This document shows positions 7,447-44,056 of a stretch of DNA of 64,000 nucleotides, piece by piece (position 1 is the stretch's first letter; each line of letters begins with the position of its first letter). The stretch is from the NCBI GenBank assembly GCA_013002305.1, contig JABDKG010000040.1:1-64000 (forward strand), in the 5' to 3' direction. The DNA comes from Hellea sp. GTDB lineage: Bacteria; Pseudomonadota; Alphaproteobacteria; Caulobacterales; Maricaulaceae. The position numbers and the translations under genes are program-made. The notes under the pieces were generated by a model. That model was not told the DNA's origin. It searched no databases and saw only the letters and a list, made by a program, of their open reading frames with translations.

Positions 7447-8124
7447 ATGAAAAAGTTGAAGCAAATTGTTGGTGTGACGGCCCTTATGTCCGCCCTTGCG
7501 ATCAGCGCTGGCGCGCTTGGCCAGACCAGCCCTGCCTATTCCGGCGGGACGCCTGTCTATGCCGCTTTTACGGATCCGCAAAATGTTGAAAACGACCTTA
7601 ACCGGATCGATGCGGCGCTAAATTCCATAACCGACTTTGAAGGCCGTTTCACACAATATAGTCCTGACGGACGGGTTGATACGGGTATTATATATTTGTC
7701 GCGTCCGGGACGAATGCGCTTTGAATATGATGACCCAAACCCGCTTTTGGTGGTTTCTGATGGGGTGACTCTGGTACAACATGACAAGGCGCTGGAAATG
7801 TCTGACCGTGTGCCTTTGTCCTCGACGCCGCTCAACTTTTTCCTCAAAGAAAATGTTCAGCTCGCGCGCGATACGGAAGTTGTCGGCTTGACCAAATCCG
7901 CTCAGGAAATTCGCGTTACCGCCCGCGATGGCAGCGGCGAAATGGACGGGGTGATCTCGATGATCTTTGATCCGGTGACATTGGCGTTTCAGGCTTGGAT
8001 AATCGGCGATAGTTTTGGCGGAGAAACCCGCATTGTCTTGTCGGATTTAAGTTATAATGGCAATATTAACCCGCGCCTATTCATTCATGATGATGATAAT
8101 CGCCGGGATCGTCGCCGCCGTTAA
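7447..8124 (+). CDS. lolA: Outer-membrane lipoprotein carrier protein LolA
   Basis: 225 residues with an N-terminal signal peptide (about 1-26). The mature part has the LolA half-barrel pattern: ITDFEGRFTQYSPDGRVDTGIIYLSRPGRMRFEYDDPNPLLVVSDG, where an aromatic-rich strand and the PGRMRFEY motif are typical. LolA shuttles lipoproteins through the periplasm from LolCDE to the outer membrane. This is relevant because the window encodes many predicted lipoproteins. The C terminus ends in an Arg/Asp-rich tail (DDDNRRDRRRR) that is not part of the fold. It is divergent from the MarR gene and followed by exoIII. Confidence 0.92.
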   Translation: MKKLKQIVGVTALMSALAISAGALGQTSPAYSGGTPVYAAFTDPQNVENDLNRIDAALNSITDFEGRFTQYSPDGRVDTGIIYLSRPGRMRFEYDDPNPLLVVSDGVTLVQHDKALEMSDRVPLSSTPLNFFLKENVQLARDTEVVGLTKSAQEIRVTARDGSGEMDGVISMIFDPVTLAFQAWIIGDSFGGETRIVLSDLSYNGNINPRLFIHDDDNRRDRRRR

Positions 8125-11283: not shown

Positions 11284-12057
11284 CTAAAATTCGGCGCCGA
11301 CCGCGTGTAAAAATGCGCCGTTTTTCTTGAGCCAGTTTTTGGCCTTTTTATATTCCGGAAATATCCCCGCAACGACCGCCCAATAAGCGCGGCTGTGATT
11401 GGCTTCGATCATGTGGGCGCATTCATGGGCGGCGACATAATCGAGCACAAAGGGCGGGGCAGAGATTAGTCGCCACGAATAGGATATATGGCCTTTGCCG
11501 TTTCGGGTAATACAGGAGCCCCAGCGCGAGCTTGTGTCGCGCACGGAGATTTTCTCAATCGGGCGGGAAAGCTCCCCGGCGTAAAACCGGCTCGCTGTTT
11601 CAAGTCTCTCCCGCGCCTCGCGGATCAAAAGGCGTTTGACCCGGCCGTGAAATGTGCCTTCGGGCGCAGGCACTCTTATTTCGCGCAAATTCCGGTCCAC
11701 TTTGGGGTGGCCACGGCCGGCAACGTGGCGCAGGCGGAAAATTTCGCCCTCGAATAATATAGGCGCGTTATCCTCAAAGGGCTGAGCCGGCGGCAGGGCT
11801 TCCAGCTGGACTTCAATCCAGTCTCGCTGCTCCCTGACAAAACACATCGCCTTGGGCAGGGAGCGAATGCCCGGAACAATGACTGAAACCTCTCTTTCAC
11901 TGGGCTTAACCTTGACCGAAATCCGGCTCGCACGGTCGGAATTCTTGTAAATAATTCTCGGATCTTCAGGGTCGCGAATTGGCAGTTTTGCTTTTGTTTC
12001 CGAAAGTTTACTGCTATGAAGGCTTTTGAATTGAATTTTAGATAGGAAACCAGACAT
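11284..12057 (-). CDS. YgjP-like zinc metallopeptidase (DUF45, M48-related)
   Basis: 257 residues. The C-terminal half carries the zinc site AAHECAHMIEANHSRAYW: HExxH plus the downstream His, with SSRWGSCITRNGKGHISYSWRL before it, the hallmark of YgjP/DUF45 proteins. Function in the cell is unknown for most members; the fold is of SprT/M48 type and soluble. Residues 1-33 are not part of the conserved core. The only good start, ATG at 12055-12057, overlaps by two bases the divergent start of the first array gene; I see no GTG or TTG start between it and the conserved core. Confidence 0.85.
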   Translation of the reverse strand: MSGFLSKIQFKSLHSSKLSETKAKLPIRDPEDPRIIYKNSDRASRISVKVKPSEREVSVIVPGIRSLPKAMCFVREQRDWIEVQLEALPPAQPFEDNAPILFEGEIFRLRHVAGRGHPKVDRNLREIRVPAPEGTFHGRVKRLLIREARERLETASRFYAGELSRPIEKISVRDTSSRWGSCITRNGKGHISYSWRLISAPPFVLDYVAAHECAHMIEANHSRAYWAVVAGIFPEYKKAKNWLKKNGAFLHAVGAEF

Positions 12058-13603
12058 GATTACTTTGCGTCATACAGTGAGCGCTTTGGCTCTGTCCACC
12101 CTGCTTGTTATGGGGGCTTGCAAGAAAAACAGCGGCGACGCGCCGGATATTGATGTAAAAGTCAAATCTGCCGATGCCAATCTTATGAAAAAACTTCTCG
12201 AAGTTGATGACCGTACGGTTGCCGACGTCGAAGCAGATGAGGCCTTAACGGCCATGGGCCTTAAGTCAAAATCACCCAGACTGACATGGGATTCCATGAG
12301 CGGTAGCGGCGGCGATTATCAGTATAAAAACCTGACCCTGAAAACCGATGACGGTGAAGATGTAAAAATTGCCGGTCTAAACTTTGACGGCGTTCACATG
12401 TCCGGCGACCATGCAACCTTTGACAAAATGTCAATTTCCGGCGTGAGCATTAGTGATGACGACGTGACGGGCTCGATTGACAGCCTGACATTGTCGCGTC
12501 CACACCCACAAGTGGCTGCAGCTATATTGCAGGGCGTCGGCGATCTCGACTCTCTGGAAGGTTTGGATTTCGATCTGGATAATGGCGAAGCGTTTGGAGC
12601 CTTGTTGCTCGAAGGCATGAAGGTCAAAGCTGATGACGCCGATGTCACCATTGATACATTTGGCTGGGGCACAGATGTAGCCACAGGTAAAGGCACATTC
12701 CTGGCGAAAAATATTAGCGTGATTGCGGATGATGGCGGCGACAAAGTCAACATCTCACTCAAGACCATGTCAGCGACCGATGTCAGCGCCGAAATTATGA
12801 GCGCATTTAAGAGCGGCTTTAACGGTGAAGGCATGCCAAGCATTAACCCGTTTCAGTCCGGTTATGGCAATATGCTTTTAGAAGATCTCAATGTGTCTGT
12901 AGAAGGGTTCAACCTCAACCTTGAAGGCGTCGAGGCGTCGTCTAAAACCAAAGGCGACATTGTCACGGAGAAGTCGGTTATGAAGCCTCTGCGGATCAAG
13001 TTCGATGGCGGCGACATGCTGCCTTACGAGATGCGCGAAGCTAAAGAAGCGCTCGACAAGATGGGTTATGATGAGCTGGTTTTCACCGCGACATCAAAAT
13101 CTGTTAAAAATAAGAGCAAAGACTCTTTGGTTGTTTCAGATTCCAACTTCACAATGGTCGACGGATTTAAGCTCAATTATGATCTTAAAGCGACCGGGCT
13201 TGAAGCCATTTCAAAAGCCCAGACCGGTATGGACGCCATGGACAATCCAATGGGCGGCATGGAAAACCTTGTCATTGAAAGCATGAATATCAGCTTCACT
13301 GACGATTCCATTCTGGACCGCGCTCTGACATTGGCAGCCGAGGAAAGCGGTCAAAGCCCGGCCTTGATGAAAACTCAGGCGCAAATGGGACTGATGATGT
13401 TGCCGGCTATGGCCGAAAACAAGGCGCAGGGTAAAATTATGTCGGATCTGGCCGACGCTCTGGGCAAATTTATTTCAGACGGCGGAACATTGACCATGTC
13501 GGTTAATCCGCCCACTCCGATCGCTGTCTCGACGCTCGAAAATATGGGCGATGGCCCCGAAGTTATTGAGAAGCTTGGACTTTCTTTCGGACATAAAAAA
13601 TAA
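12056..13603 (+). CDS. Array lipoprotein 1 of 5 (unknown family)
   Basis: 515 residues. Lipoprotein signal with LVMGAC, modified Cys22; Lys at +2 predicts release to the outer membrane by the E. coli rule. Not a family I can name. Visible layout: a helix (about 40-70); a TWDSMSGSGGDYQYKNL motif at about 80; long beta-rich repeats with alternating polar/hydrophobic residues; then a C-terminal block from about 405, ISFTDDSILDRALTLAAEE, a Met-rich helix (MGLMMLPAMAE), a FISDGGTLTMSVNPP strand, and a final LGLSFGHKK. The same blocks recur in the next four genes. AsmA- or YdgA-like beta architecture is possible but unproven. It has its own terminator, unlike the other four. Confidence 0.85.
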   Translation: MITLRHTVSALALSTLLVMGACKKNSGDAPDIDVKVKSADANLMKKLLEVDDRTVADVEADEALTAMGLKSKSPRLTWDSMSGSGGDYQYKNLTLKTDDGEDVKIAGLNFDGVHMSGDHATFDKMSISGVSISDDDVTGSIDSLTLSRPHPQVAAAILQGVGDLDSLEGLDFDLDNGEAFGALLLEGMKVKADDADVTIDTFGWGTDVATGKGTFLAKNISVIADDGGDKVNISLKTMSATDVSAEIMSAFKSGFNGEGMPSINPFQSGYGNMLLEDLNVSVEGFNLNLEGVEASSKTKGDIVTEKSVMKPLRIKFDGGDMLPYEMREAKEALDKMGYDELVFTATSKSVKNKSKDSLVVSDSNFTMVDGFKLNYDLKATGLEAISKAQTGMDAMDNPMGGMENLVIESMNISFTDDSILDRALTLAAEESGQSPALMKTQAQMGLMMLPAMAENKAQGKIMSDLADALGKFISDGGTLTMSVNPPTPIAVSTLENMGDGPEVIEKLGLSFGHKK

Positions 13604-13626
13604 ACCGAACTCAGTTTTAAAATCCG

Positions 13627-13657
13627 AAAACCCGCTCTTTCAGGGCGGGTTTTTGTT
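13627..13657 (+). terminator. Rho-independent terminator after array gene 1
   Basis: Stem AAAACCCGC (13627-13635) pairs with GCGGGTTTT (13645-13653) around a 9-base loop, and runs into a T tract. It lies 24 bases after the stop of array gene 1 and separates its transcript from array genes 2-5. Confidence 0.85.
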
Positions 13658-13736
13658 GTCTGGGCCTAAAATTTGCTTATGAAGACATCTCATTGTGGGG
13701 AATATCGGATTTCCTGTGTCTGTTTGCGGGAATATT

Positions 13737-15230
13737 ATGTCCATCCAAAATTTATCAACGGCGCTATTGCTGTCATCTGCCATCGCCCTTTCGGCGTGCG
13801 GGAAAAAGAAACCGGCCTCTGTTGACCTTAGCGCGCTGACAATTGCGAGCCTTGAGGCGCAAACCGAAATCAAATCAGCATCCATTGACGAAAGCTCGGC
13901 CATGACGGCTTTGTCGGCTTTGCGATTATCGGAAGATGCCGGGCCGTTCGACTGGGCGGCAATGTCAGGCTCTTCCGGGACATATGAATATACGGATTTC
14001 GCGCCTGATAATGGCGGGTTCTCAGCTGATAAAATGATTGTTTCCGGCGTCACCCAAGGCGAGTCCCCGGAATTTGACCGGATTGAATTTCAGCGCCTGG
14101 AAATGGGCAGTACGCTAATTGAAAGCCTTGTGCTCGCCAATCCTGTCGACGGAAAATCCGTACCCTTCATTCAAGGCCTGCTCGGTGACAAACCTTCTGT
14201 TGCCCTAATGGGCGAGCATTTTGAGGCCGGTATCATTCAGACCTATAGTTTTGATATTCCGGAAGCCGACATGTCGGGCGGCGGCCAAACAATAGCCTTT
14301 GGGCCATCTGCCGACGGAAAAAACAGAGACATAATCATTGAGGGCATGAGCCTGTTTTTCGACATGACTGAGTTCGAAATGCAGATCGATATGGGCGCGC
14401 TTAAAGTGACGGGTGCTTCGCCAAAATATCTATCCATAATGGTGGATACCTATGCTGGCGTGATGCCCGAAGGCAACTCTATTTATATGCATAATTATGC
14501 TGACGAGTTTGAAGTTCTGGATTTGACGATGAAATTTGGCGAAGAAGTTAGTGTTGAAATGCCCCGATTTTATGGCACGGCGACCCAACTAAAAGGCGGC
14601 GGCTATAGTTCTGTGTCTTATTTCGAGAAGTCTAAAATCATCCTCCCGCCATCCGATGAATTGACCAAAATATTTGGCGGAAACGAACTTTCTTTTTTTG
14701 GCGAGACTGACCAAACGGTGGACGTTGCCAAGGACCGCATGACGGTTGACCGTTTTTATTTGGAGTTTCCGGAAAACTTTAACATCAACTTCGAAATTGA
14801 CTTAAGCGGTATGATTGAACTCCAGAACAGCTATGCTGGAAAAACCATGGCAGAGATGATGATGGCGGATGAGATGGCTTTCGTGCCGGATATTGATCTA
14901 ATCAGATTCTCCTTTGAGGATAGCGGTCTTATGGACCGTGTCTGGAAAATGGCCGCTGAAGAGCAGGAGCAAAAACCGGCTATGCTGAAGCAGCAGGCCA
15001 AGATGGGATTGATGATGCTGCCGGCCATGGCTGAGGACGATTCTGAGAAAAAACTCATGACCGAAATGGCTGAGGCTCTGGACGGTTTTATTGATGATGG
15101 CGGCACTCTGATATTTGAGATGAAGCCCGAAGGCGGGTTCGATTTTTCAAATCTGGAAAATATGGACACGCCTGAGATACGCGGCGAACTTCTTGACGGC
15201 ATGGGCTTGAAATTCAAACATAAGAAATAA
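13737..15230 (+). CDS. Array lipoprotein 2 of 5 (unknown family)
   Basis: 497 residues from the ATG at 13737; an upstream GTG at 13695 would bury the signal. Lipobox LSAC with Cys21 followed by GKKK. Same blocks as array gene 1: DWAAMSGSSGTYEYTDF near residue 65, a beta-rich middle, and a C-terminal ISFEDSGLMDRVWKMAAEE-like block (here RFSFEDSGLMDRVW), KMGLMMLPAMAED, FIDDGGTLIFEMKP and GLKFKHKK. The C-terminal block is closest to that of gene 1, so these two look like the most recent duplicates. Likely first gene of an operon with genes 3-5, starting in the 80-base gap after the gene 1 terminator. Confidence 0.85.
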   Translation: MSIQNLSTALLLSSAIALSACGKKKPASVDLSALTIASLEAQTEIKSASIDESSAMTALSALRLSEDAGPFDWAAMSGSSGTYEYTDFAPDNGGFSADKMIVSGVTQGESPEFDRIEFQRLEMGSTLIESLVLANPVDGKSVPFIQGLLGDKPSVALMGEHFEAGIIQTYSFDIPEADMSGGGQTIAFGPSADGKNRDIIIEGMSLFFDMTEFEMQIDMGALKVTGASPKYLSIMVDTYAGVMPEGNSIYMHNYADEFEVLDLTMKFGEEVSVEMPRFYGTATQLKGGGYSSVSYFEKSKIILPPSDELTKIFGGNELSFFGETDQTVDVAKDRMTVDRFYLEFPENFNINFEIDLSGMIELQNSYAGKTMAEMMMADEMAFVPDIDLIRFSFEDSGLMDRVWKMAAEEQEQKPAMLKQQAKMGLMMLPAMAEDDSEKKLMTEMAEALDGFIDDGGTLIFEMKPEGGFDFSNLENMDTPEIRGELLDGMGLKFKHKK

Positions 15231-15257
15231 AGACATTATTGCGATCGGAGCAAGGTG

Positions 15258-16901
15258 ATGAATAAGAAACAATTGGCCTTGGCCAGCATGGCAGCCATAC
15301 TGATCAGTCTGACGGCGTGTGGTAACAAAGATAAAGCCGAAAAATCTGACGCGGCGGGCATTAGCGTTCCGGCCGCTGACTTTAGCCAGCTTCCTGATGT
15401 CAAACCGGACTGGATTAATTCCCAGATCATTAACGATTTTGACGGCAAAGGCCTAACGGATGACGATTTTGCCGCTGCCCTTGAGCGCCTGAAAGAAGAT
15501 GGGATGAGCTGGGAAAGTGAAAGTGGCTCCGACGGAAATTATACGCTGAGAAATGTCGCATTTTTGGAAGAGAATATTACGGCCAGCGAAATCAAGGTTT
15601 CCGGTCTGCGTCTATTGGAGGACAATTCATTATTTGTCGACACATTGGAATTTATCGATCTACAACAGCCCGAAAGTGAGTTTGACCCGGCCGTGAAGAT
15701 CGCCCGGTTCGCCATTGATTTGCCGACCAATGTGCAAATCGATCAAATGGTTCAGGCCTTCGAAAACCATCCCGAATTTTCAATGTTCTCAGATGGATTG
15801 TCAGAGCCATTGCCTAAAGGATTTCTGTCTTTCGGAAGCGGATATATGGAAGACATTACCTTCGCGGATAGCGACGTAAAAATGTCTTTGGACTTTTTGG
15901 GTTGGGCCGAAGAAGGGAAGCGCCGCGCCTCAATGTTGATGAGCAATCTCAAAATGGAATCTGTCAACTCTGATGATAATGTTGACATCCGCATTGATGA
16001 AATTTTTATCAATGGCATCGACATGGATTATTTAGAAGGCGAGCTGGTTGAGGATCCGTTTCGCTCTGACCTTTTCTCCCGTCAGGTCCGTAGTATGAAG
16101 ATCGACACGATGGAGATTAAAGCGGCTGATGTGGACATGAAGCTCCCCGAGCTTCTGGTCTGGTATACTGAACCGGAAAATGGCCGCTATTACAGCTATT
16201 TTGAAATGCCGTCTCTGACGATAGACGCCATTAAAGGGGATGGACCGTCCGACTTCGTCGATACACTTGGAACGCTCGGATATGATAGACTTGAGTTTGC
16301 CGGGCGGACGACCGCTGTGATGGACGAGAAACTGGACCTCATGGAGATCGATCATTTTGACATTTCAATGAAAGACGGATTTTCGATCGGAATGGATTAC
16401 AAGATCACGGGCGGCGATGCCATGATGACAGGGATCAAGAAATCTATCGCCCGGATCGAGGCTTGGGAAGAAGGCGAGGGTGACGATGATTTTGACGGCG
16501 AAACCGACATGGCCGAAGCTTTCAATCTATTGAATATCGAGCAGTTCGAGATCTCATTTAAAGACGATTCCATTCTTGACCGCGCTTTTAAACTCGCGGC
16601 TGCAGAGCAGGGCGGATCGGTCGCCATGGTCAGGCAACAGGCTAAAGCCGCTGTGATGATGTCCTCTCTGGCCGCCGAGAGTGAATATCAAATGAAGTTG
16701 ACCAAATCATTTGCTGAGAGCCTTCAGGGCCTGATCGATGATGGCGGCACGTTTAAATTTTCAATGACCCAAGACAAGAATTATGATTTGGGATCGGCGT
16801 TGATGAATATTTTCAGTGAGGAATTAGGCGTCTTTGGAGAGGAAGTTGATTTAGATGAGACGCTGAAGGCTTTAAATATCAAGTTTGAACATCAGAAATA
16901 G
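15258..16901 (+). CDS. Array lipoprotein 3 of 5 (unknown family)
   Basis: 547 residues. Start chosen at ATG 15258 (GGAG at 15247-15250) over the adjoining GTG at 15255. Lipobox SLTAC, Cys21. Shares the SWESESGSDGNYTLRNV motif near residue 85 and the C-terminal set: ISFKDDSILDRAFKLAAAEQ, a helix with AAVMMSSLAAESEYQ, LIDDGGTFKFSMT and LNIKFEHQK. The middle is acidic and beta-rich. It follows gene 2 by 27 bases and precedes gene 4 by 9, so it is inside a transcript. No catalytic motif is apparent, which suits a structural or lipid/peptide-binding role, but this is inference. Confidence 0.85.
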   Translation: MNKKQLALASMAAILISLTACGNKDKAEKSDAAGISVPAADFSQLPDVKPDWINSQIINDFDGKGLTDDDFAAALERLKEDGMSWESESGSDGNYTLRNVAFLEENITASEIKVSGLRLLEDNSLFVDTLEFIDLQQPESEFDPAVKIARFAIDLPTNVQIDQMVQAFENHPEFSMFSDGLSEPLPKGFLSFGSGYMEDITFADSDVKMSLDFLGWAEEGKRRASMLMSNLKMESVNSDDNVDIRIDEIFINGIDMDYLEGELVEDPFRSDLFSRQVRSMKIDTMEIKAADVDMKLPELLVWYTEPENGRYYSYFEMPSLTIDAIKGDGPSDFVDTLGTLGYDRLEFAGRTTAVMDEKLDLMEIDHFDISMKDGFSIGMDYKITGGDAMMTGIKKSIARIEAWEEGEGDDDFDGETDMAEAFNLLNIEQFEISFKDDSILDRAFKLAAAEQGGSVAMVRQQAKAAVMMSSLAAESEYQMKLTKSFAESLQGLIDDGGTFKFSMTQDKNYDLGSALMNIFSEELGVFGEEVDLDETLKALNIKFEHQK

Positions 16902-16910
16902 GCCTTATCC

Positions 16911-18551
16911 ATGCGTCCCACTAGATTTTTAATGACCGCCGCCCTTGTACCGGTTTTAATCCTGACGGGGTGCGGAAAAAAAGCCGTTGATGGCGAGATG
17001 ATAATCGTCACAGAGGCCGAGATCGTGCAAATGGTCGACAAGGCCTATGACAAGACCAAGGCCGGCCAGAAAACCAGCGACGATATAATTGCGACCCTAG
17101 AAGAGACCGGTAGCGGATGGGGGTCTGTCAGCGAAAATAACGGACTGTTTGTTTTCTCCGACTTTGTCGGACCGGACGGCGATGTAAAGATCGAGCGATT
17201 GAGTTTGGCTGGGATGCGATACAAGGAAGAGGTTCCGTATTTTTCCAAATTGTCTTTTGAAAATCTAACGATCGATACGAACGATGATGATCAACTGACC
17301 ATCAAATCTTTAAAAATGAATCTTCCGTCGGGTAAAAATCTGGATTCTCTGATGAGCGCGATTGAGGCAAGTGGCGGCGACTTTGAGGACCCTTCCGAAT
17401 TCCCGTTTGAGGACCTCGGGAAATTGGTTCGCGACTATTCCGGCGGCTTTTACTTGCAGGATTTGGCATCAACGCAAGAAGATATATCCATAAATCTCAA
17501 ATTCGCCGGCGCGGCCGTTGATCCAACAACTTCCGAACTTTCGCTCATGCTCACAGGGTTTGATTTTCTAGACAAATCCCCCTTAATTGACGAGCCGTCT
17601 ACCATGTCGATGGCCGAGTTTTCGGTGACGGGGTTTAAATTTGACGCCCTTGCGGATTCGACTGAAGCAGGCCTTCCGGGATTGATCGGCTTTTATCTCG
17701 GCTTTTATAATCCTTTCACGCCCATGATTAGCACCGCGTCAATAACGGATTTCAGATTTGCCGTAGATGACGGGATGGAGATAAGAATTCCGTCTTATAA
17801 GGTTTGGCGCAGCCGGCAATCCAAAAGCGTCGATATGGTTCACACCCAAGTCAAAGATATCACCGCGATCGCCAACCGGGATCACATGATCGAAGCCGGC
17901 GCTTATGAGGATAGCCTGTTCGATCTACTGGGGACTGACGATATTAAGGCGAGCTATGAATCGCGGTCCCGCCTGGACAGTAAGAACGATGTTTTCGAAT
18001 TGGAATATGCCGATATTCGGCTGATCGACAGTTTTGACTTTCGCGTTACCCATCAAACAACCGGGCTCAATAAGATGTTTGCGGACTTAGGCGATACAAT
18101 TGAAAATTATGATCTCGGTCAATCAAATGATCTTGAAGCCATGGCCCAAGCAGTTGGATTTGCATTTATTGCCGCCTCGAACGATGTCTCAGTCGATCAA
18201 TTGTCTTTCGAGTATACAGACCATTCCCTGATTGAAACCGTGATTAGCCGGGCATCGGAAAATGAGGGCGACAGCCCGGCAATTATTCGCCAGCAAGCCA
18301 AGAGCGAGTTGATGATGATGACGCTTTTTGCCGAGACCGAATATCAGCGAGAGCTTGCCAAAAATTTTGCCGAACAGGCGCAGGCCCTGATTGACAAAGG
18401 CGGCCGGTTAAAAATTTCAATGGAGCCGGAAGAGGGGCTAACAATAATGTCAATGATGCAAATGTCCCAAATGATGTCGTTCGGCAGCACGGAAATGCTC
18501 GACGAGGCCCTAAAAGACCTCAATTTTCAAATTTCCCATAGCGCCAAATAG
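16911..18551 (+). CDS. Array lipoprotein 4 of 5 (unknown family)
   Basis: 546 residues with lipobox ILTGC, Cys21, then GKK. Conserved blocks are more drifted: GWGSVSENNGLFVFSDF near residue 66 and LSFEYTDHSLIETVISRASENEGDSPAIIRQQ-type C-terminal helix, MMMTLFAETEYQRELAKNFAEQ, LIDKGGRLKISMEP, and a last strand LNFQISHSAK. The final region before the end is Met-rich (MSMMQMSQMMS). It starts 9 bases after gene 3 and ends 8 bases before gene 5. The Asp of the usual DxxILDR block is changed to His (TDHSLIET). Confidence 0.83.
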   Translation: MRPTRFLMTAALVPVLILTGCGKKAVDGEMIIVTEAEIVQMVDKAYDKTKAGQKTSDDIIATLEETGSGWGSVSENNGLFVFSDFVGPDGDVKIERLSLAGMRYKEEVPYFSKLSFENLTIDTNDDDQLTIKSLKMNLPSGKNLDSLMSAIEASGGDFEDPSEFPFEDLGKLVRDYSGGFYLQDLASTQEDISINLKFAGAAVDPTTSELSLMLTGFDFLDKSPLIDEPSTMSMAEFSVTGFKFDALADSTEAGLPGLIGFYLGFYNPFTPMISTASITDFRFAVDDGMEIRIPSYKVWRSRQSKSVDMVHTQVKDITAIANRDHMIEAGAYEDSLFDLLGTDDIKASYESRSRLDSKNDVFELEYADIRLIDSFDFRVTHQTTGLNKMFADLGDTIENYDLGQSNDLEAMAQAVGFAFIAASNDVSVDQLSFEYTDHSLIETVISRASENEGDSPAIIRQQAKSELMMMTLFAETEYQRELAKNFAEQAQALIDKGGRLKISMEPEEGLTIMSMMQMSQMMSFGSTEMLDEALKDLNFQISHSAK

Positions 18552-18559
18552 GAGCGGAC

Positions 18560-20356
18560 TTGACCTACGCTCGATTAACCGCAGCAGGCGTGATTATCGG
18601 CGCCGTTATATTCTGGCTGTTTCTGCGCTCGCCTTCCGAGCCGGCCGTTCAGCAGGCTCTGCCGGCGATGCCGGAGCAAATTCAAGAGCTGTCCATAGAT
18701 AAACCTGAAGTCCGGACCGTCGACGATAATCAGGCCGAAAACGCGTTACGGCTGCTGGGGTTATGGGAGACGGATGAAGACACGCATTGGGACCGCCGCA
18801 CCGGCGAGGCCGGACAATATGAGTTTTCCAACCTGTCGCTCGAAGGCGGCGATATTCGTATATCAAAACTTACCATAGGCGGCGTCAGGCTTATCAATCC
18901 GGACATTCCGTATTTCGATGTGATCGAGGGCGAGGCCGTCTCAGTATCCAATCCGCAAAAGGATTGGCGCGGCGATGCGGCCAATCTGATTTTAACTCTG
19001 CCGGACAAAGAGGGGACCGAAGATTTTCTGGCCGGCCAAATCTCTAAACCGGAAGATACGAGGCTCTATAATCTAATCGCATTATTTTTGGCTGAGGACT
19101 CCGGTCCGCCTGCGCTGCCGGAATTTAAAGCCGAGACGGTCCGCTATTTTGAAACAGGAGAAACCCGCCAATATAATCCGGTGCCCCAAAATAGTACTGA
19201 TTCCGATGAAATCGTGGTTCCGGCCTTTGACTACGAAACGGTCGAAACATTTGAGACAATAACGGTCGAGACGGTGAGCCTATCGGCGCAGCCCGATACG
19301 GATTTGTATAATTTTCAGATCAAAAACTATAGGTTTGAATCCGGGACTGTCGGCGCGCTCGATACCGACAAATCAGCGATTTCCGGGCTGACTCTATTGG
19401 GACTGGGCGTGGAGTCTAAAGACATTTTAAGGCAGGGCGACCTGTTTGCTGATGAATTAATGATGAGTGAGGATGATCCTTATAACCCGATTTATCAGCT
19501 TTTATCCGTGACAGGATTTAACGGCGCTGACGGACCAAATCAATTTGAAATTCCGCAATTCTCAATGTCCTATTCGGCCAAGGCGGGCGGCCAGTTTTTC
19601 AAAAATGTTCAGGCGCCAATTATCAAAGTATCCACGGCCCCGCCGCCAGAACCGGCCGCAGATGTTGATGCGCCTGCCTATTCTTATCACAATCCGTTTT
19701 CGCCGGAAAAATTTATTGAAAACGGAACTTTTTCATATTCCAGCGAGTCTTTTTTCGACGAGACCACACAGACAATGGAACTTCGTCACCTGACCTTCAT
19801 CAAAGAAAATAGTTTTAAAGTTTCAATGTCCCATAAGATTTCAGGCTGGAACGGGTTCAATAGCATGTTTCAAGGCACCTTTGATCACTATGTCGAAGAA
19901 GAGGACCCGTTGGCGGTGCCGGATCCAATTGAAGAACCCAAAGGGGTTCAAATACACCACGGCCAGATCAGTTTCTCGGACCGGGGCATTCGCGATGAGA
20001 TCTTTGATTTGATGTTTTCCGAAAAAGGGCTCGATATTGAAGCCTCAAAAAATATAATGAAGGCGCCTTTTTTGCTGATGCCGACAGCTGCCAGAAGCGA
20101 TTATCAAGAACGGCTGTCCAGCGATATTGCGGCGAGTTTTGAAAGCTTTATCGATGTGGGTGGGCGGCTGGAAATGACGGTCGCGCCGTCACAACCTGTT
20201 GTGTTTATGGATTTTATGGACAGCTTTGAATCTTATATTTTGGCTTCATCTTATGGCCTTGCAGCTGATGACACCTCAAATGATCAGCGCATTCGGGAAA
20301 TGGATGAAGCGATGCGCAAAGTAAATTTGAGCATTACCCACAATTTTGCCGATTAA
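18560..20356 (+). CDS. Array protein 5 of 5, signal-anchored paralogue
   Basis: 598 residues, TTG start preceded by GGAG at 18551-18554. Unlike genes 1-4 there is no lipobox and no cysteine at the N terminus: MTYARLTAAGVIIGAVIFWLFL is a signal anchor, so the protein is probably held in the inner membrane facing the periplasm. It keeps the family motifs HWDRRTGEAGQYEFSNL (about residue 75) and a C-terminal ISFSDRGIRDEIFDLMF, LLMPTAARSDYQERL, FIDVGGRLEMTVAP and VNLSITHNF. A proline-rich insertion (about 345-385) is unique to it. The most divergent member. Its stop abuts the convergent SCO gene with no intervening base. Confidence 0.83.
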   Translation: MTYARLTAAGVIIGAVIFWLFLRSPSEPAVQQALPAMPEQIQELSIDKPEVRTVDDNQAENALRLLGLWETDEDTHWDRRTGEAGQYEFSNLSLEGGDIRISKLTIGGVRLINPDIPYFDVIEGEAVSVSNPQKDWRGDAANLILTLPDKEGTEDFLAGQISKPEDTRLYNLIALFLAEDSGPPALPEFKAETVRYFETGETRQYNPVPQNSTDSDEIVVPAFDYETVETFETITVETVSLSAQPDTDLYNFQIKNYRFESGTVGALDTDKSAISGLTLLGLGVESKDILRQGDLFADELMMSEDDPYNPIYQLLSVTGFNGADGPNQFEIPQFSMSYSAKAGGQFFKNVQAPIIKVSTAPPPEPAADVDAPAYSYHNPFSPEKFIENGTFSYSSESFFDETTQTMELRHLTFIKENSFKVSMSHKISGWNGFNSMFQGTFDHYVEEEDPLAVPDPIEEPKGVQIHHGQISFSDRGIRDEIFDLMFSEKGLDIEASKNIMKAPFLLMPTAARSDYQERLSSDIAASFESFIDVGGRLEMTVAPSQPVVFMDFMDSFESYILASSYGLAADDTSNDQRIREMDEAMRKVNLSITHNFAD

Positions 20357-20992
20357 TCAGTGCTCTGATTTATAAGCCTTCAAGGCCTTGATAATATCCG
20401 GCGTGCTTGTGTCGTGGGTGAAGACATCGACAAATTTCCCGTCCTTATCCATCACATAAATCAGGCTGGCATGATCGACCGTATAGCCGGCCTCGCTCTG
20501 CGGGTCCGGGACTTTCTGGGAATAAATCTTATAGGCCGCCTTGGCGGCGCTAACCTGTTCCGGCGTGCCGGTCAGGCCGATCAGACCTTTGGGGAAACCG
20601 TTATTGGTGACATAGACACTCAGGCTCTCCGGCGTGTCGCGCTCCGGGTCGACAGAAATAAAGACCGGACGAAAATAAGAGCCGTCCGGATCAATTTCAG
20701 ACAAAGCCATCCCCATTTGCTGCAGGGCGAGCGGGCAGACATCCGGGCAAAAGGCAAAGCCGAAATAAATCAGTTGCGGCTTGCCGAGCAGGTCCTGATC
20801 TGTGAACGGCGCGCCGGTATGATCCACCAGCTCAAACGGTCCACCAATGTCGGCGACGCCGACGGCCGTGACTTTGCCCGAGCGGGCCGGTTTATCTTCG
20901 AGGGATGGCTCTCGGTCGCAGGCCGCTAAAAACAAAATAGCTGACAGGGACAGAACCGATATTAGGCGGCGCGGGATCTTCACGATTTTCAC
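20357..20992 (-). CDS. SCO1/SenC-family copper chaperone lipoprotein
   Basis: 211 residues. Lipobox FLAAC with Cys25 and Asp at +2, which by the E. coli rule would keep it in the inner membrane. Thioredoxin-like fold with the copper-binding FCPDVCPL (Cys82, Cys86) and the third ligand His174 in TVDHASLIYV. SCO proteins deliver copper to the CuA site of cytochrome c oxidase, or act as thiol reductants. It is divergent from regB, an arrangement that recalls the senC-reg clusters of purple bacteria. Confidence 0.92.
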   Translation of the reverse strand: MKIVKIPRRLISVLSLSAILFLAACDREPSLEDKPARSGKVTAVGVADIGGPFELVDHTGAPFTDQDLLGKPQLIYFGFAFCPDVCPLALQQMGMALSEIDPDGSYFRPVFISVDPERDTPESLSVYVTNNGFPKGLIGLTGTPEQVSAAKAAYKIYSQKVPDPQSEAGYTVDHASLIYVMDKDGKFVDVFTHDTSTPDIIKALKAYKSEH

Positions 20993-42309: not shown

Positions 42310-43914
42310 TTACTGTCCGGAAAGAGGCTCGAGAAAATCGAGCGCCGCCAGCTTGCCCGCCTGTTCGTTCAGGCCGGCATTATAAAGGCTATCAATGATT
42401 AGAAACATATCGAGATCTGAAAGCGCTCCGCTTTCCAGCATAAGCGCCGCGCGTAGTGCCGTTTCGGCTTGCGCCCGGCGCCGCGCCGCGCTTTGCAGCA
42501 AAAGCCCCTTCCCCGAAAGCCGGCCAAGATTATTTCTCTGCGAGAAAATTTTATGGGCGGCCGTGTCTGATAGATTGGCGCCAAGACCATAGGCTATGAG
42601 CGCGTCCCGCAGTGCCCGGCTGTTTTTCTCGCGAAGACGGGTCTCAATATCAGTGCCGAGCGCGCCGCCGAAAAACCCGTTGCCAATCGCATCCGCGGCG
42701 AGCGCAATCCGGTCCTGATGGGCCGTATTATCATCCATCAAACCGTGCAATTGCTGAAGTGCAATAATGTCGCCGCGCAGGGCTGCGGTTTTCGCAATCA
42801 TCGGAATTTGGCCAGCCGTCAGATCGGGATAATATATCCCTTGCAGTTGAGGCTCCACCAATTTTGCAAAACGCGCAAATTGGTTGGCTTTGTCGGCGCG
42901 GCTTAAGAGCTCGATTAGCGCCGGCAGCTGCTCTTCTTGGCTGCCCGAGCGCGATAGATGATAGAGCTGCGCAAATCCCGCACCGCCTTTATCGGACATG
43001 GCTGTTTCCAGCGTGATCGGAGCCTGGGTTTCCATGACGCCGCCAGCCAGGTCCGAGGCAAGGCCGCTTTCCGGCGCACCTAAACTGTCTAATATTTGCC
43101 GGATTTGGCCATCCGACATTGCAGGCGCCGCGACCAATAGAGCCTTAAATCGTTCGTCGTTATTTTTGACAGCATTAAAAGCCGTTTGCGCGGCGGAGGC
43201 CGGAGGCTGCTGCCCGGCGGGCCACGGAATATCAGCGCTCGCCATCATCGCAATTGAAAGCGGGCTGCCATTGACGGCCCTGACATCCGGGCGTCCCGGA
43301 ACGCCGGTCAGGGACCGCATTAACGCTGTATAGCCTTTATCATTATCTCCGCTGGAGCGGATTAGATCGAGGGTCAATTCGGCTGCGGCCGTTTCGCCGC
43401 GCTCAACATGGCAAAAGGCCCGTAGCTTCATCCAGTAAATTTCCGCTCTTTTTTCGAGAATGGAATCAGACTGGGTGCAGGCGCTGCTAATATCGCCTGA
43501 CAAGAGCGCAAGGTCGGCGCGCAGTTCTTGAGAGCTGGCAAGCCCGGGTGAGCGCTGGGCAATATCCTGCGCAGCGGAAAGTTCTGACAGTTTGATAATC
43601 GCGCCAAGCCGGTTTCCGGAAAAACTGCCATCACCATCCTGCATAGGCGGAACGCCGGGTGAGAGCAGGGCACGTCGTGTCAGTTCCCGGGCTATCGGGT
43701 TTTGGAAATTTTGCGGTAAGTCCAGGATTAATTCTTCAGCGACATCGGCAGGCGTGCTGGCCCAGAGATTATTTCCCAGCGCGCCGTCCGCCGGCGTTAA
43801 AGTGCCCGGCTCATAGGCTTCGGCGCTGCCGAGCTGCCCGACGTCAATAGATTGAGCATAAGACGGGCCTGACAGAGCAAAAAGGGCGGCCGCTGTGCAG
43901 AGTAAATCGCGCAT
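42310..43914 (-). CDS. Hypothetical exported helical protein, 534 aa
   Basis: I do not recognise this. From ATG at 43914 it starts with a signal peptide (MRDLLCTAAALFALSGPSYA); an ATG 54 bases upstream would overlap the small membrane-protein gene. The mature part is long, mostly helical, with many Ala/Leu stretches and pairs of helices (for example QLPALIELLSRADKANQFARFAKLV), suggesting an alpha-solenoid. A protein occupies the same place between xerD and aroK in other alphaproteobacteria that I recall. Starts 1 base after the stop of the 46-residue gene, so the two are co-expressed. Confidence 0.75.
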   Translation of the reverse strand: MRDLLCTAAALFALSGPSYAQSIDVGQLGSAEAYEPGTLTPADGALGNNLWASTPADVAEELILDLPQNFQNPIARELTRRALLSPGVPPMQDGDGSFSGNRLGAIIKLSELSAAQDIAQRSPGLASSQELRADLALLSGDISSACTQSDSILEKRAEIYWMKLRAFCHVERGETAAAELTLDLIRSSGDNDKGYTALMRSLTGVPGRPDVRAVNGSPLSIAMMASADIPWPAGQQPPASAAQTAFNAVKNNDERFKALLVAAPAMSDGQIRQILDSLGAPESGLASDLAGGVMETQAPITLETAMSDKGGAGFAQLYHLSRSGSQEEQLPALIELLSRADKANQFARFAKLVEPQLQGIYYPDLTAGQIPMIAKTAALRGDIIALQQLHGLMDDNTAHQDRIALAADAIGNGFFGGALGTDIETRLREKNSRALRDALIAYGLGANLSDTAAHKIFSQRNNLGRLSGKGLLLQSAARRRAQAETALRAALMLESGALSDLDMFLIIDSLYNAGLNEQAGKLAALDFLEPLSGQ

Positions 43915-43915
43915 A

Positions 43916-44056
43916 TTATTTTTCGAAATTATCTTCGATAGTGACAGTAATGGTTTCCGTATTGGCATTTTCAGGCCCGGCTTTGCTCACTAGCCAAATA
44001 AAAATGCCAGCCAATACCAATAGCAGAGATATCAGAATAATACTCAGTTTTTTCAT
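43916..44056 (-). CDS. Small single-pass membrane protein, 46 aa
   Basis: 46 residues from ATG at 44056: MKKLSIILISLLLVLAGIFIWLVSKAGPEN then a short acidic tail ending DNFEK. An ATG five codons upstream (44071) is equally possible. A single hydrophobic helix makes it a signal anchor or lipid-less secreted peptide. Translated 1 base ahead of the 534-residue gene, which suggests a functional pair. Short frames can be chance, but the hydrophobic core, charge and spacing support it. Confidence 0.6.
   Translation of the reverse strand: MKKLSIILISLLLVLAGIFIWLVSKAGPENANTETITVTIEDNFEK

Follow-up and report, generated by a model that had tools for sequence, protein, structure and literature searches.

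A window of 64,000 nucleotides from Hellea sp. (the whole stretch of DNA analysed here) carries five consecutive genes, E1-E5, which a preliminary description took for tandem paralogues of an unnamed envelope protein family, suggesting that they are subfunctionalised parts of one structure. The locus raises the questions of whether the five genes share one origin, how the array arose and what its products might do in the cell envelope.

Five homologous genes and their neighbours

The open reading frames lie on the same strand at 12056-20356 and code for products of 497-598 residues, the sizes previously reported. E1 (12056-13603, +; 515 aa), E2 (13737-15230, +; 497 aa from the ATG at 13737, with a GTG alternative at 13695), E3 (15258-16901, +; 547 aa from the ATG at 15258, with a GTG alternative at 15255) and E4 (16911-18551, +; 546 aa) encode lipobox proteins with mature lengths of 477-527 residues. 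E5 (18560-20356, +; 598 aa, TTG start) encodes a protein with an N-terminal hydrophobic anchor and no lipobox.

All-against-all BLASTP connected the five proteins in all ten pairs, with E values from about 2e-39 (E1-E2) to about 1e-7 (E2-E5); the best segments were 19-36% identical and some of them spanned just 83-157 residues. The MAFFT alignment showed 17 invariant columns, and the homology of E1-E5, with common ordered motifs, was confirmed. The motifs themselves are real but looser than had been stated, W...SG..G.Y...N being exact in E1 and E3 only and DDGGTL in E2 only, with SDGGTL, DDGGTF, DKGGRL and DVGGRL in the other copies. The ISFxDxSILDR stretch, which had been taken for a helix, corresponds in the E1 model to the last part of a strand and its transition into a helix. 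Searches of E1-E5 against Pfam and NCBIfam gave no match over the model cut-offs; 23 family members scanned against Pfam gave a best E value of 0.018, each model being hit by at most one member, and the family was thus correctly called unnamed.

The array is flanked by two genes on the opposite strand, a YgjP-like metallopeptidase gene (11284-12057, -; PF01863, E 8.6e-44) divergent from E1 and a SCO1/SenC gene (20357-20992, -; PF02630, E 6.5e-46) convergent with E5 and conserved as a flank in the genus. Of the 29 genomes whose neighbourhoods were compared, 20 had a YgjP-like gene directly next to a family gene (9/9 of the genus and 11/20 others), in agreement with the idea of conserved clustering. 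The start codons of the divergent YgjP-like gene and E1 overlap (CATG, 12055-12058), which would place the promoter of either gene within its neighbour unless the true start codons are more internal; by coordinates, the same overlap occurs at L036 (near 8001) and L037 (near 4038). A terminator-like hairpin with a U-rich 3' arm lies in the E1/E2 gap (13625-13655, +; -20.8 kcal/mol, z -5.1), and the output of a consensus scan did not include it. The gaps within E2-E5 are 27, 9 and 8 bases long. Because of the hairpin and these short gaps, the array appears to comprise two putative transcription units, E1 by itself and E2-E5.

Besides YgjP, SCO1, a histidine kinase and response regulators, neighbours were looked up through representatives, which were glycine-zipper, Na/H exchanger, TrkH, YmdB, transglycosylase/transpeptidase, MotA-like, PHB depolymerase-like and YebC proteins; no lipid gene was seen among these representatives and none of them adjoins the family everywhere. 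At L063, L065, L068, L071 and L072, in five further genomes of the family, the single-copy gene is immediately preceded on its own strand by a gene for a transglycosylase/transpeptidase (PBP1-like), and at L058 and L075 the YgjP-like gene sits between the PBP1-like gene and the family gene. Elsewhere in the window, a LolA-like lipoprotein carrier is encoded about 4 kb upstream of the array (7447-8124, +; PF03548, E 2.3e-22), and the gene at 42310-43968 (-) codes for 552 residues beginning with a Sec-like N-terminus, for which Pfam returned no match at E <= 0.001.

Copy number, lineages and selection

The genome of the window (2.94 Mb, 102 contigs, 97% complete) contains these five copies and no sixth at E <= 0.001. 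A profile built from the five sequences detected the family in 43 of 61 genomes, the window genome counted. Within the genus, 9 of 10 genomes have the family, with copy numbers from 0 to 11: none in G005, one in G003, two each in G008 and G009, five in G000, two in an array and one elsewhere in G001, four plus one in G002, ten plus one in G004, at least three across two contig ends plus one on a third contig in G006, and one copy with a fragment on another contig in G007, a genome with a reported contamination of 8%. With this range, the view that the five copies are set components of a single structure is not supported. Two SCO1/histidine-kinase/response-regulator loci occur in G007, L053 (G007:C1) and L054 (G007:C123), with an E1-type gene at one and an E5-type fragment at the other; one of them may be foreign in view of the reported contamination.

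Of 200 genomes sampled from the order, 125 carry the family, about two thirds of them with a single match, and some of the multiple matches are one gene split in two pieces. At class level 42 of 289 genomes matched, many in the C-terminal part only, and a superfamily profile made of the class relatives and five family members matched 56 of 299 phylum genomes, 11 of them outside the class. Same-strand neighbouring pairs were observed in at least seven genomes of one other taxonomic family (G065, G069, G073, G128, G152, G174 and G213) and in two genomes at class level (G243 and G426), indicating that tandem duplication is recurrent.

A quick maximum-likelihood tree of 57 rows was calculated, with SH-aLRT as the only support measure and six long end branches flagged; ORFs shorter than 270 aa were excluded, and the duplicates L035-L038 and L040 (the last near-identical to L039 by eye) were removed from the tree and from the lipobox counts given below. 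E1 fell in a group to which each of the nine family-bearing genomes of the genus contributed one gene (support 91, or 98 without G003), and all genes of this group adjoin YgjP. Single-copy genes from other genera surrounded the E1 group in the tree (14 rows, support 97); E1 is orthologous to the gene of those genera and evolves slowly, with an end branch of 0.53 compared with 0.98-1.68 for E2-E5. The E5 lineage comprised seven rows (support 100), five of them directly beside SCO1, and the E2 lineage four rows (support 100); the placement of E3 and E4 was less certain. The YgjP synteny and the tree lineages together indicate that the array grew within a locus that is itself conserved. The five genes are a local tandem amplification of one ancestral gene, and the array has stable first and last lineages with a variable middle.

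Between G002 and G006, dN/dS was 0.11 for the E1 lineage, 0.11 for E5 and 0.17 for E2, several dS values exceeding 1; for a fourth array lineage no value was obtained, dS being saturated. For comparison, three neighbouring genes lay at 0.03-0.08, and the single copy in two Henriciella MAGs at 0.06. Purifying selection is supported in the measurable lineages. These data bear on an explanation in which the extra copies have no distinct role, tandem duplication at an unstable locus increasing the dose of a single protein and the copies drifting with weak constraint. The genus-wide range of copy number, the same-strand pairs that recur in other families and the longer branches of E2-E5 relative to E1 are all compatible with it, whereas the E1, E2 and E5 lineages are stable across genomes (SH-aLRT 91-100), the E5 lineage has a distinct anchor and the low dN/dS (0.11-0.17) extends beyond E1; we consider this explanation very unlikely.

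Anchors, predicted fold and remote relatives

The lipobox pattern is present in E1-E4, and E5 shows an N-terminal hydrophobic segment with no Cys, as expected from the description of four lipoproteins and one membrane-anchored member. Within the family, a lipobox was found in 46 of 57 rows (44 by pattern and two, L047_18345 and L048_1690, by eye), two rows (L050 and L054) were cut at contig ends, and nine had none, namely L048_114, L049, L071, L072 and five rows of the E5 lineage, which are all of its members with a readable N-terminus (lipobox in 0/5). By eye, most class and phylum relatives carry an N-terminal membrane-anchor-like segment, and one of them, L168, is a lipobox protein. E1-E4 are without Asp at +2 and would reside in the outer membrane according to the +2 Asp sorting rule, which comes from enterobacteria and may not hold in this host; E5 is probably held in the inner membrane by its N-terminal helix.

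E1 and E5 were modelled separately by AlphaFold2 with 15 sequences, the former with pLDDT 80.8 and pTM 0.76 and the latter at lower confidence (pLDDT 68.3, pTM 0.65). The order of strands and helices matches between the two models, and the long-stranded beta fold proposed as common to the family is predicted in both modelled members. Foldseek searches against the PDB returned two matches per model at E <= 1e-3, all of them JlpA chains with prob 1.00 each (E 1.5e-7 and 2.4e-7 for E1; 2.7e-7 and 7.2e-6 for E5). The TM-scores were low (0.28-0.29 and 0.39 for E1; 0.23 and 0.34-0.35 for E5), the best value of 0.39 being normalised by JlpA length, and the Foldseek rmsd was 9-12. VIA placed JlpA on residues 206-514 of E1 (Z 9.8, rmsd 5.9, 251 residues) and on residues 243-595 of E5 (Z 8.5, rmsd 8.5, 259 residues); a best Z of 7-8 is common in VIA without a true match, and unrelated porins equalled or exceeded the Z of JlpA at rmsd of about 9-14. 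Since porins tie, Z alone cannot single out JlpA, while the Foldseek E values and the low rmsd do. At the sequence level, the family profiles A2 and A8 did not return 3UAU from PDB sequences searched to E 10, and the PDB sequence searches gave chance matches only, among them an LptA chain at E 0.4. In a viral structure library, phage tail-fibre and mimivirus proteins were matched (E 3.4e-5 and 1.8e-4, prob 0.97, rmsd 23 and 18) and were taken as generic long sheets.

JlpA (PDB 3UAU) is described as a Campylobacter surface lipoprotein for cell adhesion (PMC7857515). The same could apply to the array, whose lipoproteins would then be surface-exposed adhesins or receptors, amplified and diversified for attachment to algae, particles or polymers. 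Rapid divergence of the copies and their variable number in the genus would suit such proteins, and the tandem lpl cluster of S. aureus contributes to host-cell invasion (PMC4470592). However, the E5 lineage has no lipobox in any of its five readable rows and looks membrane-anchored, the distant relatives are (by eye) mostly anchored by an N-terminal segment, and the gene is widespread in the order, mostly as a single match, with all measured lineages under purifying selection. A role in adhesion is, in our judgement, unlikely.

Kawai et al. in 2012 reportedly described JlpA as a half-barrel in the form of a catcher's mitt, unique in its topology and containing a hydrophobic basin. At Foldseek ranks 3-15 for E5, 10 of 13 rows were Lpt, LPD-3 or Vps13 chains, to be read as a trend only since each has an E value of 0.005-0.2. 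LptA/LptC chains gave non-significant E values of 0.06-0.08 with E1 and 0.02-0.3 with E5, over 116-189 columns, and AsmA, MucB and LolB structures were absent among the best 50 VIA matches listed for E1 and E5. The JlpA match together with the weak Lpt, LPD-3 and Vps13 rows suggests a groove for a hydrophobic ligand. Family-mean hydrophobicity, calculated from 103 rows reduced to 55 at 80% identity, showed a lag-2 autocorrelation of 0.26 in the E1 strands, a value reached by none of 2000 shuffles; this signal fits any amphipathic sheet. The odd/even contrast in strand hydrophobicity fell within the shuffles, which reached it in 635/2000 cases for E1, 1932/2000 for E5 and 3179/5000 for the family mean. 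With one measure positive and the other negative, hydrophobic alternation is not diagnostic of a groove.

The preliminary guess of a YdgA/AsmA-like architecture was examined by profile comparison. In Pfam, PF06097, PF09898 and the AsmA-like families (AsmA, DUF748, TamB) gave no match over cut-off for E1-E5, and none of the 23 family members matched DUF945, DUF2125 or AsmA-like models at E <= 0.5. For hhalign, 24 DUF945 rows (A9; 4/28 dropped) and 25 strand-matched DUF2125 rows (21/25 re-found by their own profile) were used. The window family scored 3.8% to DUF945 and 0.2% to DUF2125, with five controls at 0.1-1.5% (SCO1, 1.5%), and these scores, with the lack of a Pfam match, do not support its membership in either family. 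The combined distant relatives (32 rows) scored 58% to DUF945 over 27 columns and 44% to DUF2125 over 63 columns, with five control families at 0.1-0.3%; the matched stretches are short and partly consist of the N-terminal membrane segment. To the window family, hhalign gave 99.1% for the far relatives and 99.9% for the class relatives, the latter value being partly circular because these were chosen by that window-family profile. Among the relatives, matches below cut-off were those of the far relative L165 to the DUF945 N-terminus (E 2.1e-4), of the far relative L166 to the GspN model TIGR04411 (E 1.8e-4) and of one class relative to DUF748 (E 0.019). The far relatives L161, L162, L163, L169 and L171, from outside the class and of about 417-563 aa, bear a short tail that by eye looks like an Sm-like beta-barrel, and Pfam did not name this tail in the three far relatives scanned.

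Given the low scores of the window family and the raised scores of the distant relatives, the family is best described as folding like JlpA and perhaps remotely allied to YdgA/DUF945 and DUF2125, not as a member. The earlier guess leads in a sensible direction, in view of the anchor-like N-termini and raised, non-significant scores of the distant relatives, the sub-threshold match of L165 and the non-significant Lpt, LPD-3 and Vps13 rows of E5; the window family itself showed no membership of DUF945, DUF2125 or AsmA. The scores, although not significant, are suggestive of a wider superfamily allied to DUF945/YdgA and DUF2125. In a stronger form, the five genes would themselves be remote members of DUF945/YdgA or DUF2125, or of an AsmA-like superfamily including them, and would share their role. 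The scores of the distant relatives over their controls and the matches of L165 and L166 lend this form some weight, set against the low scores of the window family, its 0/23 Pfam matches and the shortness of the aligned stretches, and we regard it as somewhat doubtful.

Proposed role and comparison with known systems

We tentatively propose that an ancient single-copy envelope gene was amplified in tandem at the level of the genus to give the array, whose JlpA-like "mitts" would hold a hydrophobic ligand as lipid chaperones or transfer partners, a reading that we consider possible, if somewhat short of probable. Homology, the predicted fold match, synteny, anchor types by pattern, lineages and purifying selection in the measurable lineages were obtained by computation. 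Each product would form a long, curved sheet of beta strands, with a hairpin of helices close to the C-terminus, and would be attached by lipid anchors in E1-E4, probably to the outer membrane, and by the N-terminal helix in E5, probably to the inner membrane. The half-barrel groove would accommodate a hydrophobic ligand, likeliest a membrane lipid or a lipid-linked molecule; E1 may retain the ancestral job, and the extra copies may have diverged in ligand or partner. Since E5 is anchored without a lipobox and E1-E4 are lipoproteins, a relay across the periplasm is the most economical guess; the ligand, the membrane and side of residence and the direction of transfer are all features that we infer. 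A lipid role is opposed by the description of JlpA as an adhesin, by the odd/even test, which failed, by the lower quality of the E5 model and by the neighbours looked up, among which no lipid gene was seen. A broader version of the proposal, to which we give little credence, would derive JlpA and the Proteobacteria-wide family of anchored "mitts" from one ancestor with one job, the carriage of lipid between envelope membranes, the array being a relay with E5 as inner-membrane donor and E1-E4 as outer-membrane acceptors that differ in lipid preference.

No Pfam or NCBIfam model matches the window proteins, and the family is present in 125/200 sampled genomes of the order, with relatives in 56/299 of the phylum. 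As its predicted fold ties it to JlpA, a harmless organism with one housekeeping copy could reveal the role of the half-barrel, and within the genus, where copies number 1 to 11, the ancestral one can readily be compared with its diverged sisters. No account of this array was found among the top results listed in searches of open-licence papers.

Among known systems, DUF945/YdgA (PF06097) and DUF2125 (PF09898) compare with the distant relatives, which have an N-terminal anchor-like segment and raised but non-significant scores. The AsmA-like groove proteins (YhdP, TamB, YdbH) and Lpt are envelope beta-groove proteins and suggested lipid carriers; the Lpt, LPD-3 and Vps13 rows below JlpA in the structure lists were not significant, Pfam gave no match for the window proteins, and four of the five are lipoproteins of 477-527 mature residues. 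JlpA of Campylobacter jejuni (3UAU) is a lipoprotein like E1-E4, and the predicted folds of E1 and E5 match it over about 250 residues; the array differs in having no detectable sequence similarity to it, low TM-scores, multiple copies, one copy without a lipobox and, in E1, about 130 extra N-terminal residues with further strands. The lpl genes of Staphylococcus aureus are a tandem array of paralogous lipoprotein genes (PMC4470592), as is the array of the window. They lie on a Gram-positive genomic island, whereas the window array occupies a conserved single-copy locus. The lpl proteins belong to DUF576, while E1-E5 match neither DUF576 nor any other Pfam model. Tandem lipoprotein arrays (lpl), JlpA and groove proteins are already known; the aspects that appear to be new are the unmodelled family and how widely it occurs, its tie to the JlpA fold, and the way in which a conserved single-copy gene has been amplified, with an anchored protein as the last member.
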